From: Chloroflexota bacterium
GTDB lineage: Bacteria; Chloroflexota; Anaerolineae; UBA1429
DNA: 64,000 nucleotides
NCBI GenBank assembly: GCA_012841405.1
Contig: DUUT01000073.1
Span: 1-64,000, forward strand
Direction: 5' to 3'
In this document: positions 27,860 to 58,365 of the stretch, piece after piece
How the letters are laid out: the number at the start of each line of letters is the position of its first letter
How positions within the stretch are numbered: position 1 is the stretch's first letter
Notes under the pieces: generated by a model
What the model was told of the DNA's origin: nothing
The model's database searches: none
Seen by the model: the letters and a program-made list of their open reading frames with translations, nothing else
Translations under genes and position numbers: made by a program

Positions 27860-27935
27860 GGCGTGATGTAGCATACCGTCTCGTGGTGGGGATGAGAGCC
27901 CGCGCAGGCGGGCTTGACCATCGGAGCGCTGGGTC

Positions 27936-28502
27936 TTAACCCGCGGTGAACGTTCGGCCGCGCCTCATTGCGTCCCCGAGCGCCTCGCCGCACACCTCCT
28001 GGTAGCCACAGGAGCGACAGCGCGCCGGGTCATCGTGGCTGCGCGGGAGGTCGTCCGACCGCAGGGCGCAGCGCATCTCGTCCATCACTGCCAAGAGGCG
28101 CTCATGGAGGGGATCGTCATAGGGGATGCGAAAGGCCTGGTCGCGATAGTGCAGCAGCCCGTGGGGCGGAGGCCGCCCTTCCACTTCCTCCACCAGGAGG
28201 CAGTAGGCGGCCAGCTGGAGCACATCGCCCTCGTAGGGGCGCGCCGCGCGTCGGCTGGGCTTGACCTCGACGGGGATCGTATCGTTCCCCACACGCACTA
28301 GGTAGTCCGGCTTGCCGGCGAGGCGCCAGTGGCGGGCAAACAGGGGGCGGCACGCCTCCCAGCCCTCGGTGTCGGCATAGATGACCTCCCCCTTTGGTAG
28401 GCCCGTCCGCCGCTCCATGGCGCGGGAGCGCGCCCAGAGCACGTAGGCCAGCCCAGCCACGATGACCAGGGCCAGGAGCAGGCCAAGCTGCCAGGCGCTC
28501 AT
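27936..28502 (-). CDS. membrane-anchored C-terminal half of a Cas4/RecB-like PD-(D/E)XK nuclease
   Basis: MSAWQLGLLLALVIVAGLAYVLWA TM, then LAGKPDYLVRVGNDTIPVEVKPSR (D...ExK), DVLQLAAYCLLVEE and CRSCGYQEVCGEAL (CxxCx5C); ATG at 28502. Confidence 0.75.
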   Translation of the reverse strand: MSAWQLGLLLALVIVAGLAYVLWARSRAMERRTGLPKGEVIYADTEGWEACRPLFARHWRLAGKPDYLVRVGNDTIPVEVKPSRRAARPYEGDVLQLAAYCLLVEEVEGRPPPHGLLHYRDQAFRIPYDDPLHERLLAVMDEMRCALRSDDLPRSHDDPARCRSCGYQEVCGEALGDAMRRGRTFTAG

Positions 28503-30392: not shown

Positions 30393-30530
30393 CTAGGCCG
30401 TGTTTTCAGGACGCACCCGACACAGAAACGATGTCGCCCCGAGCGTAAGCGAGGAGCCCTGACGCCCATCGACAAGGTTTCTCGCCACACTCAGCACGAC
30501 GCTGTGGCCCTTTCTCCAAACACTACCTAG
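30393..30530 (+). repeat. MITE-like element, copy 1 (138 bp)
   Basis: CTAGGCCGTGTTTTCAGGACGC ... GCTGTGGCCCTTTCTCCAAACACTACCTAG; ends inverted-repeat to each other; core shared with other copies. Confidence 0.8.
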
Positions 30531-31879
30531 TCCGCCGGCTGAAAGCTGATCCAGGTCAGCTTGCCCCACTCGCCTGCGACATCCAGCGGCGTCGACGGGA
30601 GATCGGCCAGACTGATCGTATAGGTCACCGGGTTCGCCAGACCATCGAAGGAGAACTGCCCCTGCCCGTCACTAATGGACGTGACCGACCAGTCCCACGC
30701 GCGGATCGTCACCGCCACGCCACCTACGCCGATCCCCTGCTCATCCAGCACATGGCCACGGATGAACATCTGCTGCGAACCGATCTCCTCCGAGCGCACC
30801 ACCCGGCCCACATACGTCCCCGCAGGCGTCGGTGTCCCCGCATCGAGGGCGCCTGGCGTGAGCGATACCGTCGGCGTCAGCGCTCGCGCCACGCAGTGGG
30901 CAGCGGCGTCATCATGCATACGCGACAGCGAGTCGCTCGCTACGAGATCGAGCGCTAGGGCATACTGCTCCTCGGCCCCGCACCAGTCCTGGGCAGCGGC
31001 CAACTGCTCGCCCAGCGCCTCCCGGGCTTCCGCCAGGCGCAGACGCACATCGCAGTACGCCGGGTCGAGGTCATGGACCCGGGCCAGGTTGTCGATGACC
31101 AGGGCCCAATCGGTATCCCAGTACGAGAGTCCGGTGATATAGTGTGTGGCAAGAGTTCTGGCTCGCGTCACGCGTTCCTCATCCGGCTGGATCAACAACG
31201 CGCGGTCGAACAGGCGCAGCGCCTCGGTGATGCGCTCCTGTGCCACGAGCTGCTGGCCACTCTGGTACAGCGCCTCGAACAGCAGACGGTCCACCTCTTC
31301 GCGGCGATAGGTGGGGTTCGCGGCCAACAGGCGGTCCGCCGTACCAAACACGGTTGGCCAGTCCTCGCGCTCGTACGCCTCTGTCATCTCGTTCAGATAG
31401 GCGGCGCACATCTCGTCCTGGAGCTGCGAGGTCGGCACAGGGAGCCCCTCCAAGCGCTCCTGCGCCGCCTCGAGGCCCTGTCTCGCCTCCTCGAGGCTGG
31501 GATCCAGCTGCAGCGCCATGCCAAACTCGGCGACGGCAAGCTCGTACTCCTGCTGGTTCAGGTGGGTGGTGCCCCGCGCCAGGTGCTCCGCCGCAGCCTC
31601 GCGGGCCGCGGCCTGCCGATCGCGCAACCCCATGTGCACCGCGCCGATACCGAGCCCCACCACCGCCAGGAAGGCCAGCCCGGCCAAGATCAGCACCGTC
31701 ATCGTACGCCTGCACCCCTCGGGGCGTCGCTCCGCGGTGCGGTGCTCCTCAATCGCAAAGGGCGGGCGTTCCACCGAGGCGGCCGGCCGCGCCACCGCCG
31801 CTGTCGTCACCTTTTGGCCGCAGTGTGGGCAAAAGAGCGCCCGGCCGCGGATTGCTTTGCCACACGTGGGGCAGTTCAT
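30527..31879 (-). CDS. zinc-ribbon / TPR-repeat membrane protein with C-terminal carboxypeptidase-regulatory-like domain
   Basis: 450 aa; MNCPTCGKAIRGRALFCPHCGQK, one TM, TPR-like helices, C-terminal GVGGVAVTIRAWDWSVTSISDGQGQFSFDGL. Confidence 0.75.
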   Translation of the reverse strand: MNCPTCGKAIRGRALFCPHCGQKVTTAAVARPAASVERPPFAIEEHRTAERRPEGCRRTMTVLILAGLAFLAVVGLGIGAVHMGLRDRQAAAREAAAEHLARGTTHLNQQEYELAVAEFGMALQLDPSLEEARQGLEAAQERLEGLPVPTSQLQDEMCAAYLNEMTEAYEREDWPTVFGTADRLLAANPTYRREEVDRLLFEALYQSGQQLVAQERITEALRLFDRALLIQPDEERVTRARTLATHYITGLSYWDTDWALVIDNLARVHDLDPAYCDVRLRLAEAREALGEQLAAAQDWCGAEEQYALALDLVASDSLSRMHDDAAAHCVARALTPTVSLTPGALDAGTPTPAGTYVGRVVRSEEIGSQQMFIRGHVLDEQGIGVGGVAVTIRAWDWSVTSISDGQGQFSFDGLANPVTYTISLADLPSTPLDVAGEWGKLTWISFQPAD

Positions 31880-37974: not shown

Positions 37975-38032
37975 GCCACACCCCTTCGTTGCTGTTCGAT
38001 GCCTCGTATCAACCGCTACAGGCAGCCTCGGC

Positions 38033-38183
38033 CAGGTAACGTTTGGGAAAAGGGCCACCGCGTCCTTCCGAGCGCGGCGAGAAACCTCGCGACGAGAACC
38101 CTCGTCGATGGGCGTCAAGCCCCTCGCCTACGCTCGGGGCGACACCGCTTCTCCGTCGGGCGCGTTTTCCAGTCACGGCCTAG
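38033..38183 (-). repeat. MITE-like element, copy 2 (about 151 bp, reverse orientation)
   Basis: CAGGTAACGTTTGGGAAAAGGGCC ... GGGCGCGTTTTCCAGTCACGGCCTAG; core matches copies 1/3/5 after reverse complement, plus a short internal duplication. Confidence 0.75.
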
Positions 38184-38614
38184 TCTTGGGGCAGGATCTC
38201 GCGAATCTCGCACACCTCGTACTCGACGCCACGGAAATAGGCGACGAACACGCCCGGTCGGATCTCGAGCGCCTCGCCCAGGAACTCGATGCCGCGATCC
38301 TTCAGCGCCTGGTACGTTGCCCAGAAATCCTTGACGAGGAAGCCAATGTGAATCAGGCCATAGTCGCTCTGCTGGTGATCGGGCCGCAGCTCACGCCCCT
38401 TGGGGTAGTGATAGTCGAACAGCTCGAGCACATTGTCACCGAACTTCATGTGAACGATGCGCACGCGCGTCCCCTCGACGCCAATGAGCCGCGCCATGGG
38501 CGTGTCAAACTCGCGGTCGAACACCTTTTCCATGCCGACCACGTCCTGGTAAAAGGCGATCGCCTTGTCCATGTCCTTCACGCTCATGGCCACGTGATCC
38601 ATGCGTTCGAACAT
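38180..38614 (-). CDS. VOC/glyoxalase-like protein (methylmalonyl-CoA epimerase-like)
   Basis: 144 aa; RMDHVAMSVKDMDKAIAFYQDVVGMEKV, DYGLIHIGFLVKDFWATYQALKDRGIEFLGE. Confidence 0.8.
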   Translation of the reverse strand: MFERMDHVAMSVKDMDKAIAFYQDVVGMEKVFDREFDTPMARLIGVEGTRVRIVHMKFGDNVLELFDYHYPKGRELRPDHQQSDYGLIHIGFLVKDFWATYQALKDRGIEFLGEALEIRPGVFVAYFRGVEYEVCEIREILPQD

Positions 38615-54307: not shown

Positions 54308-54949
54308 ATGATCGTCCGCACCCTCGAGGTGGGCATGTTGCGCACCAACTGCTACCTCGTGGTCTCAGAGGCCTCGCACGAGTCCGCCATCATCGATCCC
54401 GGTGGTGACGCTGCCGCCATCCTCGACGCCCTCGATGCGCTGGGCGCGACGGCGCAGGTGATCCTGCTCACCCACTACCACTTTGACCATATCATGGCGG
54501 TACCTGACCTCGTGCGCCAGACGGGGGCCCCGGTGGCGATCCACGAAGCCGAGGCGGAGCTGCTGGCCCGGCCACCGACCCTCTTTCGCCTGGCCCAACC
54601 CGACACACCGCGCCTTACGGCCGATCGGCTCTTGCGTGATGGCGACACCATCACGATCGGCGCCGACACGCTGCGCGTGCTGCACACGCCGGGGCACTCT
54701 CCTGGGGGTGTCTCCTACTATGCGGCGGAGGAGGGGGTCGTCTTTGTTGGGGATGCCCTCTTTGCCGAGGGCGTGGGGCGCACCGACTTTCCGGGCAGCA
54801 GCGGCGCCCAGCTCGTGCGCAGCATCCGCGAGCGCCTGTTCACCCTGCCCGATGATACCGTCGTCTATCCGGGGCACGGCCCTGCGACGACCATCGGCCA
54901 CGAGCGGCGCGCCAACCCATGGGTGGGTGATCGCCGGGGGGCATACTAG
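54308..54949 (+). CDS. MBL-fold metallohydrolase (glyoxalase II-like)
   Basis: 213 aa; LLTHYHFDHIMAVPDL, TPGHSPGGVSYYAAEEGVVFVGDALFAEGVGRTDFPG, YPGHGPATTIGHE. Confidence 0.93.
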   Translation: MIVRTLEVGMLRTNCYLVVSEASHESAIIDPGGDAAAILDALDALGATAQVILLTHYHFDHIMAVPDLVRQTGAPVAIHEAEAELLARPPTLFRLAQPDTPRLTADRLLRDGDTITIGADTLRVLHTPGHSPGGVSYYAAEEGVVFVGDALFAEGVGRTDFPGSSGAQLVRSIRERLFTLPDDTVVYPGHGPATTIGHERRANPWVGDRRGAY

Positions 54950-55083
54950 GCCGTGTCTCAAGAATGCACCCGACGGAGGAACGATGTCGCCCCGCGCGTA
55001 CGCGGGGGGCCTCGACGCCCATCGCCAAGGTTTCTTGCCACGCTCAGAACGGCGCTGTGGCCCTCTTTTCACACACTACCTAG
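54946..55083 (+). repeat. MITE-like element, copy 3 (138 bp)
   Basis: CTAGGCCGTGTCTCAAGAATGCACCC ... GCTGTGGCCCTCTTTTCACACACTACCTAG, fills the whole gap between two convergent stop codons. Confidence 0.85.
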
Positions 55084-55955
55084 CCCGGCAGGCTATAGCG
55101 CCGCTCGATGACGTGTCGCCCCCGATTCCCCCGTGCGTGGTTGATCCACCGCTGCGCTTCGCGCGGGGCGTCGGGGGTGGTGAGGAATACCAGGGGATAG
55201 CCGAGGGGATAGCGACCCGACCGGATCTCGGCCGCCGTCGGACGGTGCTCATCGATGGCTACCACCCGTACCCGATCGTCCACATAGGCATTCGAGACGT
55301 AACCGATGGCGCCGGGGTGCTCGGCCACATACTCGATCACAGCACGATCGTGGGGAACGATGATAGCGAACGACGAGACGCCGGTATCGCCCATGATGAC
55401 GCGCTCAAACACGGCACGCCCCAGCGATTCGGGCGTGTGCACGAGCACCTCCACGGCCTCGTCGGCGCCTCCGAGCTCATCCCAGCGCAGGTATTCCCCG
55501 GCATAGAGCGCCGCCAGCTGCCCCGCCGACAGCGTGTGGATCCCCACGCTGGGGTGCACGACCACCGCCACGGCATCGAGCGCCAGGACCTCGGCGCCCG
55601 GGCCTCCGCCCTCGTCCGCGGGCGTCGCCGGGTCAACGCCCACGACGGCGACATCCGCCTGCCCCGTAGCGAGGAGGTCCTGAGCCACCGCCGACCCCAC
55701 CGGCACCACATCGAACGATGTCCGTGGGCTCAGCCGGCCATACTCTGCCACCAGTTCGGACACCAAGGGCAGCGACGCCCAGCAGGCCGCCACACGCACG
55801 AGGGCCGGCTCGTCGGTCACCTCCGCCGCCTCTTCTCCCAACCCCACCAACGGTCCCGAGACTCCCTGACAGCCGCCGCCGATCAGGCCGGCGAGGATCG
55901 TCGCCAGCACGAGGAATCGGGCGGAACGCGCCCAGAGATGGGAGAGGCCGTTCAT
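55080..55955 (-). CDS. PstS-like phosphate ABC transporter substrate-binding lipoprotein
   Basis: 291 aa; lipobox LAGLIGGGCQG, EYGRLSPRTSFDVVPVGSAVAQDLLATGQADVAVVG, GVSSFAIIVPHDRAVIEYVAEHPGAIGYVSNAY. Confidence 0.85.
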   Translation of the reverse strand: MNGLSHLWARSARFLVLATILAGLIGGGCQGVSGPLVGLGEEAAEVTDEPALVRVAACWASLPLVSELVAEYGRLSPRTSFDVVPVGSAVAQDLLATGQADVAVVGVDPATPADEGGGPGAEVLALDAVAVVVHPSVGIHTLSAGQLAALYAGEYLRWDELGGADEAVEVLVHTPESLGRAVFERVIMGDTGVSSFAIIVPHDRAVIEYVAEHPGAIGYVSNAYVDDRVRVVAIDEHRPTAAEIRSGRYPLGYPLVFLTTPDAPREAQRWINHARGNRGRHVIERRYSLPG

Positions 55956-55964
55956 CGGCGCTCC

Positions 55965-56792
55965 TCAGCGGATAAAGGTGATGACCAACGTGAGTAGACC
56001 AAACCCCCAGCAGTACAGGGCAAAGGCATAGAGAGGCCGCTTGCGCAAAAAACCGAGCAGGAACCCAATAGCGGCGTATCCGGCCAGGAAGGCCACCACG
56101 AACCCTGCCCCCAAATTCAGGAGCTGCGTCGGTTCGATGCCGACACGAATCAGCTTGATGATCTGCAGGCCGGCCGCGCCGGCGATGATAGGGATCACCA
56201 TCAGGAACGAAAAGCGCGCGGCATCCTCTCGCTGCAACCCCCGCAGCAATCCCCCGGCAATCGTGGTGCCCGACCGGGACAACCCCGGGGCAATGGCCAT
56301 GGCTTGCGCCAGCCCGATCCAGATAGCATCACGCCAGCTGGCCTGCTGGAGCGGGCGAGAATGCTGCCCGATGCGCTCGCTGGCAACCAACAGCCCCCCG
56401 GTGACGAGGAGCAGGAGCGCCACCGCTCGCGGCGAGCCAAAGAGCGCCTCGAAATAGTCCTCCGCCAGGTAACCGAGCACCGCGCCGGGGATCGTGCTCA
56501 GCACGATTAGCCAGCCTAGGCGTTCCTCGGGCAGGGCCAGGTTGCGCCGTCGCACACTCCTCCACCACCCCCGCACCACGATCTCGATCTCCCGGCGCAT
56601 GTAGAGCAGCACCGCTAGCAGGGTGCCGAGGTGGAGCACCGAGTCGAACGCCAAGCCGGGGTTTGACCACCCCAGCAGCCACGGAACGATGACGAGGTGC
56701 GCGGAGCTACTCACCGGCAGGAACTCGGTGGCCCCCTGCAGGAGGCCTAACAGCATCGCTTGGAGAACGTTCACGAGGCCCTCCATTCCCAC
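55965..56792 (-). CDS. uppP: undecaprenyl-diphosphate phosphatase
   Basis: 275 aa; LLGLLQGATEFLPVSSSAHLVIVPWLLGW, GLAQAMAIAPGLSRSGTTIAGGLLRGL. Confidence 0.96.
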   Translation of the reverse strand: MGMEGLVNVLQAMLLGLLQGATEFLPVSSSAHLVIVPWLLGWSNPGLAFDSVLHLGTLLAVLLYMRREIEIVVRGWWRSVRRRNLALPEERLGWLIVLSTIPGAVLGYLAEDYFEALFGSPRAVALLLLVTGGLLVASERIGQHSRPLQQASWRDAIWIGLAQAMAIAPGLSRSGTTIAGGLLRGLQREDAARFSFLMVIPIIAGAAGLQIIKLIRVGIEPTQLLNLGAGFVVAFLAGYAAIGFLLGFLRKRPLYAFALYCWGFGLLTLVITFIR

Positions 56793-56795
56793 GTT

Positions 56796-56934
56796 CTACG
56801 TAGTGTTTGGAAAACGGGCCCCACAGCATCGTTCTCAGCAGGGCGAGAAACCTTGTCGATGGGCCTCAAGGCCCGTCGCGTACGCTTGGGCGACATCGTT
56901 TCTACGTCGGATGCGTTTTCGAAGCACGACCTAG
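56796..56934 (-). repeat. MITE-like element, copy 4 (139 bp, reverse orientation)
   Basis: CTACGTAGTGTTTGGAAAACGGGCCCCACAGC ... GATGCGTTTTCGAAGCACGACCTAG. Confidence 0.8.
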
Positions 56935-58133
56935 CCGGCAGACCGGCGCCAGGCCTGGCGATTCCTTTCTCGTGCCTTGGCGTCGGCCACGCGGTAGCGC
57001 TGGTGAAAGGCCTCGCGGAAGGTAGGGTACCGGCCCTCTTTGATGGCCTGGCGGATATCGTTCATCAGAGTCAGCATAAAGTGCACGTTGTGTACCGTAC
57101 CCAGGTGCAACCCAAGCATCTCTTTGGCAACGAACAGATGGCGCAGATATGCTCGGGTGAACGTCTGACAGGTAGAGCAGGCGCACCCATCTTCGATGGG
57201 CTGTCTATCCTCGGCATAGACGGCGTTACGGATGTTGAGCCGCCCATCGCGCGTCAACAGGGCGCCATTGCGTGCCAGGCGCGTCGGCAGCACGCAGTCA
57301 AAGATGTCGACCCCCCGCGCGACACCCTCCACGAGATCCTCCGGCGACCCCACCCCCATGAGGTAACGGGGGCGATCTCGCGGAAGCAGCGGGACGACGA
57401 CGTCCAACATGGCGTGCATCTCTTCTTTCGATTCGCCCACACTCAGCCCGCCGATGGCGTAGCCCGGAAAGCCCAAAGCCGTCAGGGTGCGGGCGCTCTC
57501 CGCCCGCAGATCGGCAAAAACGCCCCCCTGCACGATGCCAAATAGCGCCTGGTCACGCCGTCGGTGCGCCTCGAGGCTGCGCGCAGCCCACAGATGCGTG
57601 CGGCGCAGCGCCTCCACGTTGTAGGCATAGTCGTCGGGCACGGTGCACTCGTCCAACACCATGGCGATGTCCGAGCCCAACTGCTCCTGAATCGCCGCCA
57701 CCTTTTCGGGCGTAAAGCGGTGCTCCGAGCCATCGATGTGCGAGCGGAACGTGACGCCGTCATCATCCACCCGCCGCAGGTCCCTCAGGCTGAACACCTG
57801 GAACCCGCCGCTATCCGTGAGGATGGGACCATCCCACCCCATGAACTGGTGCAGTCCCCCAAGGCGCTCGATGCGCTCAGCGCCGGGGCGCAGGTAGAGG
57901 TGGTAGGTGTTCGCCAGAATCATGGTCGCGCCGACCTCGCGCAGGTCGCGCGGCGAGAGGGCCTTGACGGTGGCCTGCGTCCCCACCGGGCAGAACACCG
58001 GTGTCGGCAGGTCACCATGGGGGGTGTGCAGCACCCCGAGGCGGGCTCGCGTAGCGGTATCCTCGGCGAGGAGCGTGTATGAAACGGCGTCGTTGGTCGG
58101 GCGAGGCGTAGCCTCGGGACGTATCACAGTCAT
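56931..58133 (-). CDS. tgt: tRNA-guanine transglycosylase
   Basis: 400 aa; VFCPVGTQATVKALSPRDL, ILANTYHLYLRPG, LTDSGGFQVFSLRDLR, AIGGLSVGESKEEM, CSTCQTFTRAYLRHLF. Confidence 0.97.
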   Translation of the reverse strand: MTVIRPEATPRPTNDAVSYTLLAEDTATRARLGVLHTPHGDLPTPVFCPVGTQATVKALSPRDLREVGATMILANTYHLYLRPGAERIERLGGLHQFMGWDGPILTDSGGFQVFSLRDLRRVDDDGVTFRSHIDGSEHRFTPEKVAAIQEQLGSDIAMVLDECTVPDDYAYNVEALRRTHLWAARSLEAHRRRDQALFGIVQGGVFADLRAESARTLTALGFPGYAIGGLSVGESKEEMHAMLDVVVPLLPRDRPRYLMGVGSPEDLVEGVARGVDIFDCVLPTRLARNGALLTRDGRLNIRNAVYAEDRQPIEDGCACSTCQTFTRAYLRHLFVAKEMLGLHLGTVHNVHFMLTLMNDIRQAIKEGRYPTFREAFHQRYRVADAKARERNRQAWRRSAG

Positions 58134-58225: not shown

Positions 58226-58365
58226 CCAGGGGGTGTTTGGAAAACCCACCCGCTGGTGAAACGGTGTCGCCCCGAGCGTCAGCGAGGGAGGGGCCTTGAC
58301 GCCATCGCCAAGGTTTCTCGCCCCGCTCGGAACGACGCTGTGGCCCTTTGCCAACCACCACCGAG
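58226..58365 (+). repeat. MITE-like element, copy 5 (about 140 bp, right end diverged)
   Basis: CCAGGGGGTGTTTGGAAAACCCACCCG ... core GTGTCGCCCCGAGCGTCAGCGAGG ... CAAGGTTTCTCGCCCCGCTCGGAACGACGCTGTGGCCCTTTGCCAACCACC. Confidence 0.7.

Follow-up and report, generated by a model that had tools for sequence, protein, structure and literature searches.

The stretch analysed here (the window) comprises 64,000 nucleotides of contig DUUT01000073.1 from a Chloroflexota bacterium (assembly GCA_012841405.1), and the subject of this work is a 138-bp repeat element lying between two of its convergent genes. A metallo-β-lactamase (MBL)-fold hydrolase (Lactamase_B; PF00753, 3.5e-36) is encoded on the plus strand at 54308-54949, and a PstS-like substrate-binding protein (PF12849; TIGR02136 at 7e-28, which is below the curated cut-off) is encoded on the minus strand at 55080-55955. 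The MBL gene ends with ...CATACTAG, its TAG stop being part of the CTAG at 54946-54949, and the minus-strand TAG stop of the PstS-like gene is likewise part of the CTAG at 55080-55083. The first-pass annotation had placed both stops in these tetranucleotides and had described the gap between the genes as made up wholly of a repeat element; the sequence and the open reading frames bore out both statements, since the entire gap, both CTAGs counted, is the plus-strand copy at 54946-55083. A search of the genome's own assembly with this copy returned at least 39 further matches, with 100% of the query covered.

The assembly is a 4.0-Mb draft in 238 contigs with an estimated contamination of 7.5%, and at least 40 matches to the element, the query included, were found in it. 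Genome-wide properties were determined in a sample of stretches totalling 771 kb (about a fifth of the genome; GC 0.67), in which 53 hits were obtained; 679 kb of long contigs contained 32 full copies, which extrapolates to about 190 for the whole genome. The element is thus short (138 bp), non-coding, dispersed, present in high copy number and free of any transposase gene, as is typical of a miniature inverted-repeat transposable element (MITE). Its ends form imperfect inverted repeats (CTAGGccGTGTTT... and CTAGGtaGTGTTT...), the terminal inverted repeats being CTAGGccGTGTTTcaAAAAcG and CTAGGtaGTGTTTggAAAAaG, and the consensus is palindromic over nearly its full length, so that it pairs end to end when folded, again as in MITEs. 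Individual copies were on average 91% identical to the consensus, and as no pair of copies exceeded 93.5% identity, none of them is recent. The CTAG on the side away from the stop was intact in 23 of 34 copies and decayed in the rest. Outside the polymorphic sites, the number of changes per site followed a nearly Poisson distribution (variance/mean 1.1), as neutral decay would give. The hypervariable positions (12, 14, 15, 17, 20, 31, 32, 34, 39, 55, 56, 80, 127, 132 and 133 of the element) carried two to four letters each and lay mostly in its outer parts. A class-wide draw of 396 genomes gave no copy outside the window's own genome, and 59 closer relatives gave nothing but one weak 31-base match; at element-free CTAG stops, a search for element remnants yielded only a few weak matches.

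The relatives compared at this locus all belong to other genera, and their MBL proteins were about 48-61% identical to that of the window. The convergent MBL/PstS pair was kept in 11 relatives that have no element. In one of them (G010) the two genes overlapped by exactly 4 bp (...GCGGCC-CTAG-CGGG...), a single CTAG serving as the stop of both, and in another (G005) they overlapped by 4 bp at CTAA; the remaining relatives had short gaps or overlaps, with two longer gaps of 151 and 314 nt. When the element and one CTAG were removed from the window, the same four-base overlap as in G010 was obtained. The single shared CTAG of G010 is therefore the arrangement predicted for an empty site, and the locus displays the target duplication and clean empty site looked for in a MITE insertion, the flanks being non-identical as G010 is of another genus. 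Three other convergent pairs in the window's own genome (G000 C214:90264-90267, C134:62563-62566 and C22:82656-82659) also overlapped by four bases with one CTAG as both stops and had no element between them. Displacement of neighbours was seen at other copies as well: tgt and uppP, spaced from -32 to 54 nt in relatives, were 138 nt apart in the window, nearly all of it element, and the gene downstream of era lay about 155 nt farther off than in the relative G002.

The proteins whose genes end at copies were then compared with their families. Model matches were full length, running to or almost to the end, for GyrB (639/639), RelA/SpoT (687/687), FlgK (437/437) and Era (291/291); succinate-semialdehyde dehydrogenase (SSADH) covered 457/457 and Tgt 365/368 model positions, both genes also ending at copies. 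In relatives, the orthologs of the MBL hydrolase ended within a few residues of the window protein and those of the PstS-like protein at the same place. Since the proteins are full length, the stops predate the insertions. It had been proposed earlier that insertion at a CTAG stop leaves the protein undamaged, or that insertion generates such stops. The former is upheld by the empty site in G010, the full-length proteins and the 78% of copies that lie at stops; the latter found no support, the full-length family matches and the agreeing ortholog ends ruling out truncation by new stops, with the RsmI gene that ends at a copy (224/275 model positions) set apart.

Taken together, these data very probably describe a MITE-like, non-autonomous element that inserts into CTAG with duplication of its target and persists at gene ends, where nothing is broken. 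In the proposed mechanism, the duplicated target would be either 4 bp (CTAG) or 2 bp (the TA within CTAG), with an identical outcome. At 54946-55083, the target would have been one palindromic CTAG in which the stops of both convergent genes overlapped, and its duplication would have placed a CTAG on either side, each gene keeping its own stop and the element becoming the whole gap. The earlier statement that the element supplies both stops accordingly stood as far as both lie in its terminal CTAGs, but they are better understood as one pre-existing, shared CTAG that was duplicated. Mobility would have been provided by the transposase of an insertion sequence (IS) that is now lost or unsampled, and we infer that selection purged insertions elsewhere; the element itself is probably extinct. 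Several points weigh against this account. The comparison genomes are all of other genera, so there is no exact filled/empty pair from the same genus, and the stop statistics given below rest on gene calls from a simple home-made finder. The hypervariable positions, some 15-19 with little mutual linkage, are not explained by a simple master-copy model, nor are they accounted for by simple subfamilies. Finally, the transposase families PF13340, PF01609, PF13546, PF13358, PF01797 and PF13586 had no match in the own assembly, other transposase families and the relatives not having been searched; this result is consistent with an extinct parent or with a gap in the assembly. As an autonomous IS was not found, we use the label 'MITE-like'.

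The coincidence with stop codons was examined over the sample. A terminal CTAG fell exactly on the stop of a neighbouring gene in 35 of 45 full copies (78%), and a separate set of ten copies on other contigs gave 8/10; the copy at 54946-55083 was the sole full copy of the sample with a stop at both ends, only one end coinciding elsewhere. Outside the copies there were 498 CTAGs, of which 209 were within genes, 165 between genes and 124 (25%) at stops, so that the copies were in strong excess (Fisher p=2e-12). Such an excess might point to active targeting of stop codons over and above the CTAG motif, for example by a transposase or host factor sensing gene ends, and it persisted against non-genic CTAGs, 43% of which are stops (p=1e-5). 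However, of the non-genic CTAGs lying up to 100 nt downstream from a stop, 76% are stops already, and relative to these the excess was gone (p=0.47); therefore, the data do not call for any special attraction to stops. The genome-wide excess anticipated by the first-pass annotation thus held against all CTAGs but not against those of the 3' zone. Moreover, not a single copy was found at the GTAG stops (98 genes) or ATAG stops (49 genes) of the sample, which makes the tetranucleotide, and not the stop codon, the target. Stop-specific targeting was accordingly rejected on the 3'-zone background, and an active preference of this kind is highly improbable. The coincidence would arise from the use of CTAG as target, from the rarity of CTAG elsewhere and its being mostly a stop near 3' ends, and from the loss of insertions in genes or promoters. 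A related possibility is that the ends are 'stop-proof': under a 2-bp TA duplication, the terminal G and C of the element complete TAG/CTA on both sides, insertion into TAA or TAG would always leave a stop on either flank, and the family would have spread to gene ends in this way, parting convergent genes that had overlapped and leaving each with a 3' untranslated region (UTR) of its own. Copies with other ends do occur (TTAG...CTAG, TTAG...CTAA at L021, and CTAG...CTAA), the mirrored copies expected of a 4-bp duplication were never seen, and mutation could also have produced these ends; they incline us slightly towards the 2-bp duplication, and the wider 'stop-proof' scenario is, in our view, unlikely. 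What explains this real and strong coincidence with stops is a CTAG target combined with the persistence of copies close to the 3' ends of genes, where most CTAGs are stops. As a separate observation, TAG was the commonest stop in the sample (318/628 called genes), half of these being CTAG, which is unusual at 67% GC; CTAG itself occurred 570 times against 2385 expected from base composition, about fourfold too few.

Position at gene ends could also reflect function, if the element had been domesticated as a transcription terminator or 3'-UTR hairpin and were kept there by selection. As a long, imperfect palindrome, the consensus folds strongly (-68 kcal/mol; on one strand z=-6.8), one strand carries a terminator-like GCCAC...GTGGCCCTTTTT, 35 of 45 copies are placed at 3' ends, and 13 copies lie in tail-to-tail gaps against only 1 in a head-to-head gap, both kinds of gap being equally numerous. 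The copy at 54946-55083, however, folded no better than its shuffles (z=-0.6 and -1.1), and a terminator scan of it revealed no terminator-like site; an Rfam search of the window gave no match. Across the family, paired positions did not covary (changes on both sides of a pair numbered 8, against 8.1 in shuffles), decay outside the polymorphic positions did not differ between paired and unpaired sites (p=0.41), copies faced either way with respect to the gene (23 versus 13 copies, p=0.13), one copy parts tgt from uppP within an operon, and the CTAG background of the 3' zone fully accounts for the position at stops. Copies did fold better than versions of the consensus mutated uniformly at random, because their changes cluster in the hypervariable positions; column permutation reproduced nearly all of this excess. 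The 3'-UTR hairpin suggested earlier is physically likely, as judged from the consensus, but selection for it is unsupported, and a terminator function as the reason for the stop position is very unlikely. We conclude that the copies have a palindromic origin and have decayed largely neutrally, although individual copies may still have a role. A different origin would be from palindromes of the repetitive extragenic palindromic (REP) or bacterial interspersed mosaic element (BIME) type, spread by a REP-associated tyrosine transposase (RAYT). GTAG-tagged REPs lie 3' of genes, for the most part in gaps between convergent or tandem genes, and their terminus provides the TAG stop of adjacent open reading frames (PMC3733652); a repeat end serving as the neighbour's TAG stop and a downstream location are shared with the present element, the right end of which reads CTAGGTAG inward. 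Those REPs, in contrast, are 20-40 bp long, tagged with GTAG (or CGTC) at one end only and linked to a RAYT, whereas the present element has 138 bp and a CTAG at both ends, the one CTAG at the empty site indicates target duplication, and no Y1_Tnp (PF01797) protein is present in the assembly. There is hardly any chance that it belongs to this class.

The element was compared with mobile elements of similar target choice. MITEPsy1 of Pseudomonas syringae, an IS5-like MITE, is described (PMC3189936) as a geneless element of 100 nt with imperfect inverted ends that inserts into CTAG or YTAA and duplicates 4 nt; short size, lack of genes, imperfect inverted ends and a CTAG target that is duplicated are common to both. 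Its ends (GGAAGGTCTGAAAAAGCC) differ, ISPsy2 was suggested there as the IS partner and none was found here, and the passages of that report examined here do not mention a stop-codon pattern. IS630 prefers the TA in 5'-CTAG-3' (Tenzen and Ohtsubo 1991, as cited in PMC2170065 and PMC6811581), and in the IS630/Tc1-mariner group duplication of TA, with which the TTAG...CTAA copy at L021 agrees, would yield the same CTAG...CTAG outline. No DDE_3 transposase was found in the own assembly, however, and the likeness noted is one of target choice. The element is classed here as a new family of MITE-like elements, stop-providing repeats as such being already on record in the GTAG-tagged REPs.

A CTAG-targeting mobile element can thus reach about 190 copies in a genome of about 4 Mb at little visible cost, because the few CTAGs near 3' ends are mostly stops and because duplication of a palindromic stop spares both neighbours. 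The case, with its documented splitting of one palindromic stop shared by two genes, also illustrates how convergent genes that overlap can come apart. It further cautions that the exact coincidence of a hairpin repeat with a stop codon is no evidence of terminator function.

Five copies were present in the window. Besides the one described above, the copy at 30393-30530 (plus strand) provides with its right CTAG the stop of a tetratricopeptide repeat (TPR) gene (30527-31879, minus strand). The copy at 38032-38183 (minus strand) has about 15 extra bases, its CTAG at 38180-38183 being the stop of a VOC/glyoxalase gene (38180-38614, minus strand) and its far end having decayed to CCAG. The copy at 56796-56934 (minus strand) lies between tgt, the tRNA-guanine transglycosylase gene (56931-58133, minus strand; TIGR00430, 9e-159), whose stop is in the CTAG at 56931-56934, and uppP/bacA (55965-56792, minus strand; PF02673), and its far end reads CTAC. 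The same pattern as at the MBL/PstS junction had been claimed for the stops at 30527, 38180 and 56931; each is indeed in a CTAG, but at one end of its copy only, not at two. The four stop-associated copies of the earlier inventory were all recovered, but a fifth, decayed copy (58226-58365, plus strand; ends CCAG...CGAG), neither end of which is at a stop, had not been mentioned. The copy at 56796-56934 splits two genes that stand next to each other, or almost, in relatives, with a possible effect on uppP expression. At G000 C134:9600-9841, two partial hits were obtained in what is apparently a copy interrupted by about 100 bases. A separate short dispersed repeat, apparently unrelated to the CTAG element, was also observed 3' of genes at about 27925-27980 of the window and at G000 C214:50499-50573.
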